Shown in pieces: positions 53,582-64,000 of a stretch of DNA of 64,000 bases (position 1 is the first letter of the stretch; each line of letters starts with the position of its first letter). This stretch comes from Heliocybe sulcata. Taxonomy: Eukaryota > Basidiomycota > Agaricomycetes > Gloeophyllales > Gloeophyllaceae. The stretch is from assembly GCA_004369045.1 (NCBI GenBank), contig ML213529.1:163563-227562 (forward strand). Reading direction: 5' to 3'. The notes beneath the pieces were generated by a model. The model saw only the letters and a program-made list of their open reading frames with translations, was not told where the DNA came from and did no database searches. Both the position numbers and the translations under genes were made by a program.

Positions 53582-56280
53582 TCAATTAACGTGTCCATCA
53601 CCTATGGAGATGATATTCGGCATTGGTAAATAGAGCGACAAGGTTGTGGACATACCGTGGCAACTGTGCCAGAGGTGCAGTAAATGAGGTACTTGGTAGC
53701 CCTCCATAAATCGCGCCACCGCTTGCGAACACTCGTCATACTCCGGGTCCATGGACTTGATTTTGGTATCGAAGAGCTCGCACAGGCGCTCAAAATACGC
53801 TTTTGGCGTCTCAGGAGGTGCTGGCACGCCCGGATGCATGTCCTTGAATATAGACTGTGCAACACCTCTCTCGTCAGCCCTGCTTATACAACGGCTTGTC
53901 TCCAGCGTGAGAGCCATAATGGTCGCAAAGTGTCCAGTGTGTGACTCAGTCGCAGGTTCGGGGTGTGTCAGATGGACGCGCTTCTTTCCCGCTATGAGAT
54001 CCGGACCGATCGTGTCTGTCCACTCCCGGTATGCACGGTGCACTGTAACCTTGCCCTCCTTGTAGCGAGCACAGATCCACAGGCCCACATACGCAAACGA
54101 CTCTACGTCGTGCTCTGGCGGAAAGATTAACTCCTGACTCCGCCAGAATAAACTTCGAGATGGGACGCACCGTAGAGGTGCGCGACTGAGTCACCCGTTC
54201 CGAACGCCCATAGGAGAGCAGAGGCCATAAACGGGATGGTACCAGTCCGCTCGTTTGCGAGAGAACGGCCTTCGGCATGAATGACCGACAAGTCGAAGTC
54301 ATTCAAGACGCCAACGACGTGCCCACCCCTCCTAGTGAACATCAGATTGTCCTCACTGATGTCACGATGGTGGATATCATTTTGCCAGAGAACACCATGG
54401 CCTACAGGAGTCATTAGCAAGCCAAGGAAGGTCTGAACCGGCCCGATCCACTCACAGCGGAAACAATCGTAAAATGCGCTCATGAACTCTGGGCCAGAGA
54501 GTTTATAAATGTGTTCCAAATGTTCAAATAAGAGTACGCGGAGGCGGCGAAAACAGCGCCTTTTCCCATCCCTGGATATGCCCAGGATCTTCGTCATCCG
54601 TTCAGCATATTCGTCGTCAAAATCGGCCGAAGCGCATAACATCGGTAAATGACCGCGAACATGTTTTGCGTCTTTGTCACCGCTGCACGCTACACCATAC
54701 GCCCTTGCAAGTACCCGCACCTCACTTTCCCGTCGTTCATCCGGGTGATAGATCTTGGCGACGAACTTGGAAGAGGAGTTTGGCAGGGTCGGGTGCACAT
54801 CAGAGTTTTCCACATCGATAACGTCCGTGGCACGACCAAAGAGATGGAGTGCCCTGGCATACTTAGCTTCCTTCAGCGTTACTGTAATTGAATGTGCGTC
54901 TGGCGTGGCAAGCTCGATCTTGAGCTCGCCGTCAGGCGTTTTGCGAAATACGCGATTAGAACCCCAAGCGTGCTCGTCGAAGCGTCGGAGGATATCTAGA
55001 ACGACCACCAGGTACGGTAGATTGGTGATGAAATCGAACCCGCCGGATCTGATCGCCGAACACCGGTCAAACCACCACAGCGAGATGACGCTATCTGCTC
55101 GTGGTCAACCGTCAGAAACACAGGTGGACAACTGAAAAGAACCCGAAGTGCGCACTGTTTATGATGAACTGGAAAGAATGGTTGATCGCGACCGATGATG
55201 AGAGGCGCTCGGAAGCGTAGATGGCGACCTGGACGTCGGGAGGCACCTTCGTCGGCTGTTGATCAGGGTCCCTCTCGTGGACGCCTATCTCGTACTGAGC
55301 AGCGCGCAATTCGCTCTTGCTCTTGCTCTTGCTCTTGCTCTTCGTCTCCGTTCCCTCTCTCGACTTTGACTTCTTGGAAGGCACATCCGCGCCGCTACCT
55401 GACTTCCGTTTCTTTCCAGGGACGTCATTGTTGCTAACTTCAGACATCGTAGCAGTCCAAGGTACATCCACGGCCCCCTCTGCCATCTTGAACTCGAGAG
55501 GGATCTGCTCCATCGGCGTGTCTGTTCGCTTGAATTCCAGACTAACTAGCGTTTTGTCGAAGGCAGGAGCTTTTTCCGATTTCTTGAGCGCCGGGCCAAT
55601 CCTATGCTTCTCCCAGAGATCATCCCAATTCTCACCGGGCGTCAGCTGCAGTTCAGCAGCTTCTTTGACAGTAAGAAGAGCATCACGGAGCATTAATCCC
55701 ACTACATCAGGCTTGCGTTTGGTGGTCTCCGCGAGAAGGCAGCCATCGGCGCCTACGTGTTCTGAAAGGATTTCCGTCGGGTCATTGCACTGGAAGACCA
55801 ATTGGTTCTCTTGCCCAGAGGCGGGGGGAAGACAGCCCACTGACGTCGGATCAGGCCTCGTCTTCTTGATAGCCAGAATGGTGTTAGCCAATTTGCAGAA
55901 GGGAGCGTATTCTTGTTGTTCCGTCTTCGTTTGACGACTGGAAGAATTAGACCAAGGATAATGAATCAAAGAGAGATGACGTACAATTCGGCCAGTAACT
56001 CCAGGAGCCCGTGTATCTTTCCTCCGATACTGTCCTCAGGGGAGGCACTTTTGGCCTGGTTGGCGATGGGAAGCGTTTTGTGGGCATTGCACATTATAAC
56101 AGCATCCAGGAGTAGCTCGTCGAGGATGAACTCGAGTTCCACCTTGTCCTTTTCTTTCGTTTCCGTGAAGAGGCTCAGGAGGAAAAGGAGGAAGGTTCGG
56201 ACAGACACGTCCTCGACATGTTTCTTCATCTGCTCTTCATAGTATGGTCTTATCTGTTTAACCCTATATTTCGGAGGCAT
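53582..56280 (-). CDS. FunK1-type fungal protein kinase
   Basis: Four exons, 56280-55985, 55937-55156, 55094-54195 and 54114-53582 (2511 nt, 836 aa), closing in phase. The N-terminal ~360 residues are helical and charged, with a Lys/Ser repeat (KSKSKSKSKSE, near residue 330) and KKRKSGSG that could direct nuclear import. The kinase part has KFVAKIYHPDER (lysine), the catalytic loop DIHHRDISEDNLMF and LNDFDLSV, where DFG reads DFD. HRDIS..N and DFDLS are the hallmarks of FunK1, a kinase family expanded in multicellular basidiomycetes, where it has been linked to development. A third intron with donor GTGACT and acceptor CGCCAG removes a stop and joins FGT to EHDVESFAYVGLW. All catalytic residues are present. 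A further 3' intron is possible near 53655. Confidence 0.82.
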
Positions 56281-56599: not shown

Positions 56600-56932
56600 C
56601 ACAGCGGGAGTTGCACCATTTCGAATGTTGCAATATGTTGGTCGGAATAGATTACACCTAGTAAATATATAGGATTAGCTTTTGACGGCGGCCAATATAA
56701 TTACTGAGAAGGTGATGCAGATGTATAGCGATTTATTTTATCAAATATAACATTGTAGTGACATTCGATATGCGATATTTTGATGATGTCAATATGTGTT
56801 GCAAAATATCACATCCGGCATGCTGGGGGAAGATTGCCAAATCTAACATTGAGGGAACGAGAATATGTGGTAGAAAAGATCATATTTCCACAACATCAAA
56901 AAAGGAAGATAAAAATTAAAATATAGAAATAC
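56600..56932 (+). repeat. Solo terminal segment of a CACTA-like element
   Basis: This 333-bp segment begins CACAGCGGGAGTTGCACCAT. It matches, at roughly 90 percent by eye, the reverse complement of 62522-62854, the right end of the complete element at 62052-62854. Similarity stops at about 56932, so the other end of this copy is missing or lost. It is AT-rich and non-coding. Confidence 0.7.
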
Positions 56933-56934
56933 TG

Positions 56935-57286
56935 TACCGGGCCGCGTACTCGGACACCCTAGCTTAGCAGCTCTCCACTGCTCGCAAACCATCACTTCTC
57001 GCCAAAGTAAATAGTGGAAACTGTCTGCAAATACCTCTTCTACATCATGGACATACATTTCTATTTTCTTGTCTTGCATAAGATGCACTACGAATATTTT
57101 TTTGCGGAAGGTGTCTCCGGTGGCGCGGACTACGTACTCGGACAGCGTGGGAAATCGGAGTTCGGTTTCGCAGCAACAGCCACCGGGGACTTGTAAGACG
57201 GATAGAACAATGAGCAGGCCCTCCACCTGGATGTCAGAGACACTAAATGACCTTGAGGACCCTCCCTGACAGCCTGCTGAAACCAT
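56935..57286 (-). other. Possible coding fragment, unknown
   Basis: A frame containing LRFPTLSEYVVRATGDTFRK, MYVHDVEEVFADSFHYLLWR and EVMVCEQWRAAKLGCPSTRPG. The composition is protein-like and it abuts the transposon end at 56932, so it may be a piece of element-encoded protein or of a gene cut by the insertion. I do not recognise it. Confidence 0.25.
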
Positions 57287-57533
57287 CAGAGCTTTTGTAG
57301 CCTCGAACTTCTGCGAACAGGAGCAACCTCAGGCTGTAAAGACTTCTGTCCAACTCCTATAGCCAATCGTGAGTGCTACTAGTCGTGTTGGCTTCATACC
57401 GACACAGACTTACCTGTTTGATTAGAAGAGCTATCCATTGTACCCTTTTGTGTGGTAATCAGGGCTGGGAACATCACAGACTCGGAAGATGGTCGGGAAG
57501 TGGATGGATCCGGTACGTCATGTGTGTTATCTG

Positions 57534-57835
57534 CAGTGAAAACTGCCCTGAGGAATGCGTCCAGCGCGAGAGCATCTCGACGATGAGGAGAATGTTGATG
57601 TTGAGGTAGGCATTGGCGTCTCACAGCAGTAACTGTGGTAAGATGGTACCGCATTAGTGGGCGTCCGGTGTCGGACAGCCCGGCCATCCAGGTGGTCTGT
57701 CCTGATGCAATGGGCTTCGCAAGTTGTTGAGGTCTCACAGCAGTAAAAACTGCTTTGAGACAATCTTCATGATGAGGGAGATATTGACCTTGAGGTAGGC
57801 GTCCGGGTCTCACTGCAGTAAAACTGTGGTGAGAC
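57534..57835. repeat. Hairpin-repeat array, left block
   Basis: About 30-bp imperfect palindromes built on GTCTCA..GCAGT, a short A-rich loop and ACTG..TGAGAC. Units: 57618-57644 (degenerate), 57732-57761 (near-perfect, loop AAAA) and 57807-57835, preceded by a further degenerate unit near 57530-57555. They are separated by spacers containing GCGTCCAGCGCGAG and GTTGAGGTAGGCGTCCG boxes. The spacers recur in the right block at 61356-62014. Confidence 0.7.
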
Positions 57836-57839
57836 GGCG

Positions 57840-58419
57840 CGGGACAAGCTACGCGTCGGGGAAAGAGGATGAAGAAAACTAATTCGAACTGCGGGCGACT
57901 GGGCGCACGTGGAATGTGGCGCGCGCCACTCCGGACTTGGCGTGAAACTCACGCGCGCCTAGGCAGCTATGGGCGCTTTCGCGTCTTCAGGGCTGTCTGA
58001 ACGTCAAGATTATCTGAGAAGTTCCTTGCGAGACCGGGCAAAGGAGAGCGATAGAAAATCAGAGCCCGTTCCAACTGAGAAAGTCACGATTCCTATCGTA
58101 GAGCTCATCAGATGAAACCATTGATATTAGCATGGGCCCTACTACCGCTCCTGAGCCCTCAGGAAGACCCTATTTGCCTAACGCCCGCAAAGCTGCATGC
58201 CCATCTTTGGCCGCCATCATGATCAAGATCTCATGGTTGAACTTTGCAACTGCAATTTATTGGTTGAAGCACATTATGATAAGCGTCTCTGCCGAGCTGA
58301 TGGAGCTCTGATGAGATTTCACCCTGATCACCGGAACTCGCTGCGACTGGCACAAGGCAGACGTGAAAGAGTATCAACGGAAAGCGACTGAAGTTTGGAG
58401 CAATTGTCGTTGTAATCTG
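57840..58419. other. Interval with no gene recognised
   Basis: It lies between the left hairpin array and the fragment at 58420. There is no clear exon and no element ends are visible. Confidence 0.3.
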
Positions 58420-58880
58420 GATCACCGGCCGGTCTGCCACAGACAACGCAGATTATAATTAGGACATGCTTCACATGATGAGAAGTTATAGGCACCTTCT
58501 TGGTCTTCCCGGTCGCCCGCCTCTTCCGGGTCATAACAGCTTCCGCTGCTGCTTCCACCGCTGCCTCTACCCGACTCTTACGTGACGTATATTGCAGGTG
58601 TTGAATGAGATAGTCTTTGATGGGCCAGCAATCCTTGTACTTCCCCAGGTCGGGGAATTCTCTCGTAGCCTGAGGAATTATTCAATGATGGGGTTAGACT
58701 ATCGGCGATCAATGGTGTACTGGAGAGCTTACATGCTTGTAAACCGTCTTCACTCGATTTGCAGACTGCTTGGCGAAGGAGGTCGTGAGATCGAGGTGCT
58801 GTTCCGCGAGGACATTGATCCGGTTCTAGGTATGTATGTCAGCGGATGCATACGGATGAACGGCAAGCCTAACCTGTAAC
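58420..58880 (-). other. Hypothetical coding fragment (two exons)
   Basis: On the minus strand an exon ending at 58733 encodes NVLAEQHLDLTTSFAKQ and ANRVKTVYKH. After an intron with GTAAGC donor and CCTCAG acceptor (exon start 58669) it continues ATREFPDLGKYKDCWPIKDY, LIQHLQYTSRKSRVEAAVEA and RKRRATGKTKKVPI. The pattern (T..FAKQ..., V...VY..., FP.L..Y..CWP...) recalls uncharacterised, often transposon-associated Agaricomycete proteins. Complete ends were not found, so it is probably a fragment. Confidence 0.4.
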
Positions 58881-59496
58881 TTTTTGTAATCTGCAGCTGG
58901 CCACCGCAATGTGTCTCTGAGGGCGTAACCTCCTCAGCCAGGCCTTCCCGCTTCTCCCGACGGTTTTGCTAATGCTACTGTCACATCCACCATGGAATCA
59001 TGCGACGATTGTGACCCAGTTTCAAAAGAAGTGTCGGACAGAGCGAAGGAACCCCGCACAGTCGCGTCGGCTTGGGTTCCGGGATGAGCGAAAAAGGGCA
59101 GGGAGGAAGTCGAAGAATCGGAAAGAATACTAATCCGAGAGTCCTCCCTGCTGAGCGATGGAGTTGGCGTCCCGCGGGGGGAAAGTAGAGATTTGTTTGG
59201 GCAATGGGAAGTGGGAGGGGGAGGCGTCGAGGAGCAGAGTCAGGCTTGCAGAGTGGTTCTACTGGTGTCGAGAAGATCGCCATCGTTAGTGAGTGGCGAT
59301 AGTTCGTCACACTTTTATGGATAATCTTGCAGCACGTGCCGGTCGTCAGCCGCCAAGCCGCCACAGGCATATCTTGCACAAGGCATCTCGAAAATCTCCA
59401 CGCGTGCCAAGCGAAGGGGCAGAGACACGTCGAATATTGATTGGACTCTTATAAGGATGAAGGACGAGTGAGAAGATACCCATACGGCAAGGCGAA

Positions 59497-61139
59497 ATGC
59501 CTCTCTCGAGCACCACGTCTGGAGCAAGGTACCGACTACAGGCCATGCTAGTCGGCCATACAGCCCCTGTCTTCGCGCTCCGATTTTCTCCGACCGGGAA
59601 ACTCCTCGCCAGTGGTGGTGAGCAGATGCAGATTAATACTCGCAGTCACAATTACGCATGTGAGGTTCACAGGCACTGACAGTGTTCGCTTATGGGATGT
59701 CAAGACTGGCAGCGAGCTTCCTGTTCCTACGCAGGATCCTGAAGAATATGGCCAGGCAACTTACATTGCATGGCTAACCTCTGACAGGGAGCAATTACTC
59801 AGCCATGGGACGAGCCGTGGGTATTTTGTGATATGGTTAAGGGGCTTGGGGAAGAAGCCGTGCTTCAGTCCCATAGCGAAGCTACGGCTGGGCACAGGAT
59901 GCGAAATCACTAGCATTATCCAGGAGCACTTGACAGAGCAGATCGGTGTTGGATGTATTGACGGAGTGGTTCAAGTCTGGCATATTGATCCTGGGTGGAC
60001 TCTAACCAATGTCTTCTCTGTCCAAATTGCAAATTTTTTGCCCAAGACTCTCTCATTCGTTCCGAATGCGAGGCACGACCTTCACGTCTTCAGTTGGGGA
60101 GACGGCTACTGGTACGTACGTATGCATACTCATATGCCCTACTAGATCTGAGTTTGTCTAGGACCCGGATTTGCGGAGACGACGGAGCTGTCCTACACTC
60201 TTGGGAATTGAGAAAGACCATGCGAGTTAAGCATATCAACTCTGCATGCTTCCAGACTGATACCCACGCAGTGCAGAAACGGCCGTATCCCCCACTCAAG
60301 AAGATTTTGTCGTCGACAATTGTAGTGATGGGTTCGATCTGCACTCCCTAACAGACGGCAGATTCATCCGAAAGTTCATGACACCACCTGTATGACACAC
60401 ACGGCTGAGACAAGTTCAATATGTGGAGAATGGTAGGATGGTCGTCACAGGACATACAGAGGGCGGCGTGTACGTCTTCGGCAAGGACAGCGGGAAACAA
60501 GTGGACTATCTGCAGCACCGCAACGGCAGGATGGTGACCACAATCGGGGTAAGAGGCAAGCCGACAGATGTCCGACAGAGCTGAATTTATTAACAGACTT
60601 GCGACACATCAAAAGGGAGCTTGATTGCCTGCGCAGACACGGAAGTGTGTCCCATCATCAAAATTTCAATCTGGTCGAAGCGGGATGATTCAGAGGAGCG
60701 CCCTCAACGAGGCTCCCCAAGACAGTCGCTGCACTGGGCCATGCATGCAATAATGGTCGTAATGGTTGTGGCGTGGACCACACAGTACTTCGGCATTGTG
60801 AGTCTTTCCATCTTCCTCAGGGTTGAGACTAACAACACGTAGGACATCGAGCCACAGAGGATCACGAAGGCTTTCTACCACTATGGCTGGGCGGAGTACA
60901 TGAACCCAGCCGTCACGTCGTGGCTCAAGCCAAATGTGGGCAAGGCAAAGACAAATGCGAAGCACCTGAGAGCATCAATTGAAAGGACAGCATCCAGGCA
61001 GGCCAGCAAGCTGGGCAGCAATGGCTACGTTTTCAAGAGAAACGAGCACGAGCCTTTGGATGACGGCGAGAACAGCGGCAACGGGAATGCAGAGCAGCTT
61101 GACGAGAAGGATCCTGGGACGGATCTGATTGAATGGTAG
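59497..61139 (+). pseudogene. WD40-repeat membrane protein gene with in-frame stop
   Basis: Exon 1 starts MPLSSTTSGARYRL and reads LVGHTAPVFALRFSPTGKLL, then after an intron DSVRLWDVKTGSEL, a complete WD40 repeat. Further blades: IGVGCIDGVVQVWHID, ICGDDGAVLHSWEL, VVDNCSDGFDLHSLTDGRF and VVTGHTEGGVYVFGKDSGK. After GTCDTSKGSLIAC comes a hydrophobic segment (AMHAIMVVMVVAW) that is a likely transmembrane helix, then a charged tail ending at TAG 61137-61139. Two oddities: a TGA at 60393-60395 interrupts the frame between MTPPV and HTRLRQVQYVENGR, and the exon join near 60222-60271 needs a GC-AG intron. WD40 propellers serve as protein-binding scaffolds. The gene is either recently inactivated or carries a sequence error. 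Confidence 0.6.
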
Positions 61140-61355
61140 ATGGTGCACGGTATAAGTCGAAATGAGTTTGTAGATGGTGCACTATAGCAGTGGAAATGAT
61201 ATTGCTGTCATCCTTGTGGTGCTCCATTAGTAGGCGCCGGGTATTGCAAGGGAAGAGACGTACTAAGCGAGACACAATCCGCAATGCCAGCTCCCACCCG
61301 ACAACAACCTCCATCTTTCCCGCGTGACGCGTCCAGCGAGAAGGAGTGATACCGG
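61140..61355. other. Short interval before the right hairpin array
   Basis: No gene is seen. It contains fragments similar to the spacers of the repeat blocks, such as CCAGCTCCCACCCGACAACAA, which recurs near 61770. Confidence 0.35.
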
Positions 61356-62014
61356 GTCTCAAAGCAGTAAAAACTGCTTCGAGGCATACGTCCAGCGCGA
61401 GGCCTTGAGGTTGAGGTATGGTATGCGTCCGCGATGGCAAGACAATACTGAGGGTGAAGGGAATCTTGCAGATGAGGGAGAAGCATAGCAACGGCACAAT
61501 GCTACTGTTTCGACAGATACGTCCATGGCGAGAGCATCCGAGTCTGATAGCAGTAAAAGTGCGGCGAGACAGTGAGGTGACAACCGTGCTGCAGACAAAG
61601 ACCACATTAGTGGGCATCCAGTGTCATGAACGAGCGGACGTACGAGCATGACGCAACACTGCAAGACTGTCGGATAGCCTGGCCATCGAGGTGGTCTGTC
61701 CTGATGCAACGGGCTTCGCAAGTCGTAGAGACCATGCTCCCCCCTGATGTCAATGGCGCCAACCCGCGATGCCAGCTCCCACCCAACAACAAGCTCCATC
61801 TTGCCTGCTGCAGACTTGGCAACCAAGTAACGTGTCGAGCGACCGGGTGCCCGCAACCGAGCCTGACGGCCTTGAGAGACGGGTCGACGTTGAGGCCTCA
61901 CAGCAGTAAAAACTGCTCTGATGCATACGTCCACCACGAAACGATATTGACGATGGGGTATCTTGACGTTGAGGCAGGCGTCCGGGTCTCACCACAGTAA
62001 AACTGTGGTGAGAC
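61356..62014. repeat. Hairpin-repeat array, right block
   Basis: Four clear units: 61356-61385, 61542-61570, 61895-61924 and 61986-62014. The last is a perfect palindrome, a 13-bp stem GTCTCACCACAGT / ACTGTGGTGAGAC with loop AAA. Units differ in the inner stem (AAGCAG/CTGCTT, CCACAG/CTGTGG) but the two arms change together, so pairing is kept. Spacers share TACGTCCANCGCGA and GGCATCCAGTGTC-like boxes with the left block. The block ends 37 bp from the CACTA-like element. Confidence 0.75.
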
Positions 62015-62051
62015 GGCGAGGGAGAGGCTACGCATTGGCAAAAGAGGATGA

Positions 62052-62854
62052 CACAGCGGGAGTTGCACCATTTCGGACGTGACAATATGTTAGTTGAAAT
62101 GGAAATCAAATCTATTTAATTTTGTAATTGACTTCGTAACTCGCAAAATTTATTATTCCCAAAATCCTTCATAGCTCCCTACAAATATTATCTATTGTGA
62201 TGCCTTTGGCAAGATTGTATAGCAGAGATATAAATGCCATGCATAATGTTAATAATATATCTTTCTCTGCAACGAATTTAAGACACGACAAAATTTGGGA
62301 TTTCGGGAGTTCCCTGAATGTTACTCGATAGATCTTTTTATGTGGACAATAATTCAATAAATACTATGAGATCCATAATATCAGCTGCAAACACTGCCCG
62401 AAAGGGTTATGAAAATTATATATTCCGCAATCTTGCAAAAGGTATTGGCTCAGCCAGGCAATACCTTTAGACGTTCGGTTATAGCTTTACTTTTGGTATT
62501 AGCTTTCAGATCAGTGCGAATGTATTTTTATATTTTGGTTTTATCTTCCTTTTTTGATGTTGTGAAATGTGATCTTTTTTACCACATATTCTTGTTCCCT
62601 CAATGTTAGATTTGGCGATCTTCCCCCAGCATAAGCCCAATGTGATATTTTGCAACACATATTGATATCATCAGAATATCGCATATTGAATGTCGCTACA
62701 ATGTTGTATTTAAGAAAATAAATTACTATACATCTGCATCGCCTTCTCAGTAATTATATCGGCTGCCATCAAAAGCTACTCCTATATATTTACTAGGTGT
62801 AATCTATTTTGACCAACATATTGCAACATTCAAAATGGTGCAACTCCCGCTGTG
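62052..62854. mobile_element. CACTA-like non-autonomous element (803 bp)
   Basis: The left end CACAGCGGGAGTTGCACCAT at 62052 and its reverse complement ending at 62854 form terminal inverted repeats of about 23 bp. Both sides are flanked by TGA (62049-62051 and 62855-62857), a 3-bp target duplication. Ends beginning CAC with a 3-bp duplication fit the CACTA/CMC group, which includes Plavaka elements of Agaricomycetes. The interior is AT-rich and non-coding, so a transposase elsewhere would be required. The right 333 bp is shared with the solo segment at 56600-56932. Confidence 0.7.
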
Positions 62855-62857
62855 TGA

Positions 62858-63842: not shown

Positions 63843-64000
63843 CCACTTCCAGTAACCGAATATATGACTGCCCTGTAAATGTGGCCCAATATCGGGAAGT
63901 CACAGTTGAAATATCCGTGCAATTGGATACATGATTATCTATTTGATATATCACATATCGTTAAAATGAGAACATATATCTACAATTTGTGTGATTCTAT

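Follow-up and report, generated by a model that had tools for sequence, protein, structure and literature searches.

A rare and decaying block of palindromic hairpin repeats in Heliocybe sulcata and its most likely origin within a large EnSpm-type transposon

EnSpm elements have CAC..GTG termini and 3-bp target-site duplications (TSDs) (PMC12730594). Repeats near the element ends that are bound by TNPA are a known trait of the CACTA group, maize En/Spm and soybean Tgmt carrying many short similar motifs there (PMC2613891), and captured satellite arrays have been described in CACTA elements as well (PMC8978399). Here we describe a block of palindromic repeats in a 64,000-nucleotide stretch of the basidiomycete Heliocybe sulcata (contig ML213529.1, hereafter C27, positions 163563-227562; 'the window'), whose genome comprises 31.6 Mb in 51 contigs. 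Two arrays of this block flank a WD40-like gene. A sequence-only reading of the window had taken them for covarying hairpins and had offered three explanations: binding sites for an unknown transposase, a precursor of small RNAs, or a repeat family that spreads as hairpins. Our analysis shows the repeat block to be real, rare and decaying; its most likely source is a large element of EnSpm type. A literature search covering titles and abstract openings returned no description of such hairpin arrays in fungal transposons.

All seven units that had been placed at window positions 57618, 57732, 57807, 61356, 61542, 61895 and 61986 were found there, the last of them with the perfect 13-bp stem claimed for one unit, and the common boxes seen in the spacers are real; an eighth, broken hairpin lies at 57525-57550. 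Three of the seven units (57732, 57807 and 61986) match all 20 fixed bases of the consensus. The seven window hairpins are not due to chance. Allowing at most one mismatch, the window contains 16 copies of the half-site GTCTCANNNCAGT where 4.8 would be expected, a count reached by none of 100 shuffles, and the full palindrome TCANNNCAGTN{1,6}CTGNNNTGA occurs four times on the plus strand of the window and not once in 100 first-order Markov sequences. Genome-wide, the palindrome has 30 strand matches, compared with four for a reversed control; 27 of them, corresponding to 14 hairpins, fall in four loci, and the other three are single strays. The viral contigs scanned for the palindrome gave no match. 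A scan of prokaryote genomes returned 48 stretches with one site each in unrelated taxa, which is no more than chance, since a rough estimate that assumes even base composition predicts about 120 in the 257 billion bases.

Both window arrays are diverged versions of a single low-copy repeat block in which palindromes of two types, A and B, alternate. In type A the loop is four bases long, mostly AAAA, and the right arm resembles ACTGCTTTGAG, usually with a box like ATACGTCCAGCGCGAG after it, whereas type B has an AAA loop (a single A in one unit) and a right arm like ACTGTGGTGAG. The unit order in each block is A-B-A-B, and arrays 1 and 2 are direct repeats of each other, spacers included. Tandem Repeats Finder reported no array between 57534 and 62014 because the modules are too diverged.

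Across the genome the block was located at four loci, one each on C27 and C51 and two on C9. This number is a lower bound, as some of the stretches read N (L011 1-2681, L043 1001-10000, L049 1-923 and L059 1-3787). The copy at C51:2682-6781 is 97.6% identical to window positions 57533-61632. At C9:785858-790249, arrays lie on both sides of an open reading frame (ORF) with a JmjC domain and are inverted relative to each other (77-78% identity), with pieces that are 71-89% identical to array 2. The second C9 locus (833461-833878, hereafter C9b) is a fragment of the block. The DNA between the window arrays has matches in C27 and C51 only.

In both C51 and C9 the block follows 1.4 kb of the same EnSpm-like left end. 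C51 positions 8398-7022 and C9:777139-778478 are 87% identical over approximately 1.4 kb, and the similarity ends exactly at a CACAG terminus in both; outward of it there is no adjoining match between the two contigs, only one weak 109-bp match further off. The hairpin block comes next after this left end at both loci, in the same order and orientation. Among the three explanations offered earlier, sites linked to a transposase therefore fit best, because the block follows one left end at two loci while the sequence beside the terminus differs, although protein binding at these sites is something that we only infer. No right end pairing with the left end and block was found in C51 or C9, within the limits set by N stretches and the end of a contig. 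Pieces of a tnp2-like transposase gene lie just outside the C51 left end (L011 9261-9998 and L046 593-1198), with PF02992 matches over the cut-off and further weak matches to PF02992 and DUF4218 under it.

The left end belongs to a terminal family with the ends CACAGCGGGAG..CTCCCGCTGTG, that is, CAC..GTG (the terminus at C9:777139 has one extra G). A short, 803-bp member is inserted after array 2; its termini are CACAGCGGGAG, and it is one of 13 near-full-length copies. C9 holds an uninterrupted counterpart of the insertion site, where the alignments to the two sides have the three bases of the TSD in common. The 3-bp flanks are identical in seven of the seven short loci of the family with both ends seen (one end only was seen in an eighth fetched copy). 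The longer terminus pairs have matching triplets on C6 (TAT/TAT) and at C9:4484-13948 (CAA/CAA) but unlike ones at C45:60478-69905 (TAT/TCA) and on C27 (TAC/TCA). We assign the family as EnSpm/CACTA-like because its CAC..GTG termini and 3-bp target duplications are those of EnSpm. The pair at C9:4484-13948 is a second one, with its termini 9.5 kb apart and CAA on both sides.

Within this family, a subfamily with GTTACACC after the terminus has its left end at C51:8398, C27:250679 and C6:588066 and also, with the extra G, at C9:777139. Two termini of the same subfamily, C6:556341 and C6:588066, are 31.7 kb apart and both flanked by TAT. Starting from one of these ends, 2.7 kb inward, there is a tnp2 transposase domain (PF02992), scoring 35.7 bits and thus above the cut-off. 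This stretch may be a 31.7-kb EnSpm-type element with a tnp2 transposase domain. Its readable part contains no exact match to the palindrome; 5.0 kb at one end and a few hundred bases at the other were inspected directly.

The reading that we tentatively prefer is that the block comes from a large EnSpm/CACTA-type element, that its palindromes are putative protein-binding sites and that the present copies are relics. The block would have been carried inside the transposon, about 1.5 kb from its left terminus, block and left end having formed one element, with the adjoining genes (WD40-like in C27 and C51, JmjC in C9) as cargo. On the TNPA model, palindromes that share an orientation next to the end of a transposon point to sites for a dimeric DNA-binding protein; they may have served as double-stranded sites for a TNPA-like dimer encoded by the element, which would help to pair the ends or control the genes of the element. 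With EnSpm/CACTA elements the locus shares the CAC..GTG ends and 3-bp duplications of its terminal family and the tnp2 domain of the C6 candidate; repeats near the end and captured sequence are likewise known in the class. It differs from them in having two-type palindrome blocks about 1.5 kb from the end, and the other readable members of the terminal family lack the exact pattern. Many short similar motifs near the end are also what TNPA-bound subterminal repeats of maize En/Spm and soybean Tgmt look like (PMC2613891), but each motif here is an approximately 29-bp palindrome with a loop of A residues, and its binding is putative.

Several observations weigh against this reading. Subterminal repeats usually lie closer to the end than ~1.5 kb. 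Unlike CACTA subterminal repeats, the hairpins were not found in the 803-bp non-autonomous copies (the window copy was scanned, and the others have no exact-pattern match at their places) and are therefore not needed for the movement of that family; their absence there also speaks against a binding role. In C9, 7.3 kb of other DNA separate the left end from the array, and ~165 bp of C51 have no counterpart there. No matching terminus pair brackets the arrays in C27 (TAC versus TCA), and no such terminus was found within the 20 kb read around the C9b fragment. On C6, matching TAT triplets would arise by accident with a probability of 1 in 64, and the interior there was read at its two ends; parts of C27, C51 and C6 read N, and C51 may be a haplotype copy of C27.

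Two candidate pairs of ends for an element enclosing the arrays were rejected. The termini C27:220162 and C27:250679 were ruled out as a pair by their flanking triplets, TAC and TCA. The inverted pair 56595-56914/62539-62859 was dropped because its right member falls in 62052-62854, a complete insertion that has a TSD of its own, and its left member in 56600-56932, the broken piece of a relative.

Foldback elements consist of long inverted repeats of smaller units around other DNA, an arrangement seen at C9. The block could be an independent, non-autonomous foldback-like element, with long inverted terminal repeats made of hairpin modules, nested in or beside EnSpm elements and best preserved in the C9 copy with its JmjC ORF. 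The mutual inversion of the C9 arrays, around DNA matched nowhere else, is in line with this, as is the C9b fragment, which has no EnSpm terminus in the 20 kb read. However, comparison of C9, C27, C51 and C9b revealed no common outer boundary, no target duplication of the arrays was found, the arrays of C27 and C51 are direct rather than inverted repeats, and other repeats border the C9 block to its left and right. We consider a foldback-like origin possible but unlikely.

The sequence-only reading had inferred from arms changing together that the hairpin itself is kept. The two arm pairs that it quoted (units 61356 and 61986) are correct, but no other unit in the window shows Watson-Crick pairing at all three inner bases; the remaining five carry mismatches or wobbles at these positions. 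When 21 units from the four loci were pooled (252 stem cells, 500 shuffles), 81.7% of the cells paired against 77.7% in shuffles, the covariation score was 0.182 against 0.127, and 12 cells were doubly changed against 5.6, values that none of the 500 shuffles reached, although scores of this kind are raised when the rows are related. The counts for doubly changed pairs (4 against 3.9 in shuffles) and further pair types (12 against 10.7) were reached by 326 and 148 of the 500 shuffles, respectively. In contrast to the pooled set, position-matched units of homologous blocks have 42 one-arm stem changes, four compensated ones and one unpaired double change; the four come from two positions in a single C9 unit, each scored against two further units, and the comparisons are not independent. 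The covariation claim thus holds in part only.

Over all sites, hairpins are more similar than spacers in four of the four block comparisons (93.2/88.4, 91.5/86.1, 85.6/83.3 and 84.7/82.3% identity), a point in favour of the preferred reading. With CpG sites removed they are higher in two and lower in the other two (96.4/94.2, 94.3/91.4, 86.3/87.2 and 84.5/90.8%), a point against that reading. As the excess is small over all sites and lost without CpG sites, we dropped the idea of selection on hairpins relative to spacers and do not claim it. The case for the hairpin itself being kept is weak for the present copies, which drift much like the surrounding DNA and are probably relics. Drift without compensation and copies lying inside a transposon, the two outcomes that had been named as counting against a conserved hairpin, largely describe the position-matched copies and their context.

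Hairpins of types A and B are 81% identical in their left arms and 59% in their right arms, compared with 32% and 22% in the flanks. Similarity is thus confined to the hairpin, which favours the preferred reading. The hairpin was once a discrete unit, its left half being better preserved than its right. Present-day spread as hairpins is unsupported, the copies moving as whole blocks with their spacers and only the four loci having been found; an older spread of the hairpin as a unit may be possible because A and B share arms while their flanks are near random. The same comparison bears on a serious rival, a functionless, satellite-like tandem repeat that was captured by a transposon or grew inside it. 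Captured satellite arrays have precedents in CACTA elements (PMC8978399), the modular A-B-A-B order suits such a repeat, and so does the lack of consistently better conservation of the hairpins outside CpG sites. However, plain tandem growth does not yield two hairpin types, A and B, that have arms in common but lie in unrelated flanks, and we regard a satellite as unlikely.

Regulatory sites of the adjoining WD40-like and JmjC genes, bound by a transcription factor of the host or the element, are very unlikely: genes are flanked by blocks in C27, C51 and C9, but excess conservation outside CpG sites is not consistent, and no gene of these kinds was identified in the ORF list beside the C9b fragment, near which L010 589-4705 holds ORFs resembling those of a Copia-type retrotransposon. 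Least probable of all is a hairpin precursor of small RNAs, for which stems of up to 13 bp are short, with two of the seven window units folding no better than shuffles (z -1.1 and -1.3), against five that do (z -3.9 to -4.9), and no Rfam family at gathering score in the window.

A bolder version of the EnSpm/CACTA-type origin would be a giant (~30 kb) fungal EnSpm subfamily, with two-type palindrome blocks as new internal cis-acting sites and a JmjC chromatin gene as cargo, in which hairpins control mobility or escape from silencing. Fungal EnSpm and Plavaka elements with TET/JBP cargo resemble the locus in element class and in having a chromatin-type gene nearby, but here the domain is JmjC and the gene only candidate cargo (PMC12730594). 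We consider such a subfamily quite unlikely.

The JmjC ORF between the inverted C9 arrays (L009 4471-4887) matches PF02373 with an E value of 1.4e-9; the neighbouring ORF, L009 5106-5603, has no Pfam match. The gene between the window arrays had been labelled WD40. This label is weak, with two beta-propeller matches (E 0.002-0.003), both under the curated cut-off, in one ORF of the C51 copy. Left of array 1, a 603-bp patch nearly identical to C24 sequence separates the broken piece of a transposon from the damaged hairpin (Table 1), which looks like the repair of a break with other genomic sequence. The right junction of the patch, at which GCA is common to both sides, cuts hairpin u1, whereas u1 of C51 is whole and continuous with the left-end side. 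Elsewhere in the window, 54130-55104 encodes a fungal-specific protein kinase on the minus strand (Pkinase_fungal, PF17667), and a high-copy repeat begins with 63844-64000, all or some of these bases matching at least 39 other places at 90-100%. Scanning the window for Rfam families and tRNAs gave no hits.

Table 1. Features around the two hairpin arrays (window coordinates)
Feature	Position	Strand	Remarks
Broken piece, relative of the 803-bp element	56600..56932	-	91% identity to positions 471-803 of that element
603-bp copy of C24:96143-96745, patched in	56933..57535	+	100% as rounded
Array 1, hairpin block (u1 remnant, u2, u3, u4)	57533..57872	+	C51 homology starts at 57533
Array 1 hairpin u1 (type A), left arm destroyed by junction at 57533-57535	57525..57550	+	Whole in C51
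Array 1 hairpin u2 (type B, loop shortened)	57618..57644	+	
Array 1 hairpin u3 (type A)	57732..57761	+	
Array 1 hairpin u4 (type B)	57807..57835	+	
WD40-like gene between arrays	59497..61139	+	Limits and introns by eye
Array 2, hairpin block (u1-u4)	61281..62051	+	More diverged module extends left to ~61221
Array 2 hairpin u1 (type A)	61356..61385	+	
Array 2 hairpin u2 (type B, diverged)	61542..61570	+	
Array 2 hairpin u3 (type A)	61895..61924	+	
Array 2 hairpin u4 (type B), perfect 13-bp stem	61986..62014	+	
803-bp EnSpm-like short element, inserted after array 2	62052..62854	+	TSD TGA at 62049-62051 and 62855-62857

Overall, the hairpins seem to be an oddity of transposon structure rather than a new system that spreads as hairpins. 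A block that works within the element would extend the cis-acting repeats of fungal EnSpm elements, which have been little studied, by a palindromic type and would provide a defined sequence for finding the protein that reads the hairpins. A block without such a role would still illustrate the decay of a transposon-borne repeat and the patching of a damaged hairpin with a near-identical copy of host sequence.

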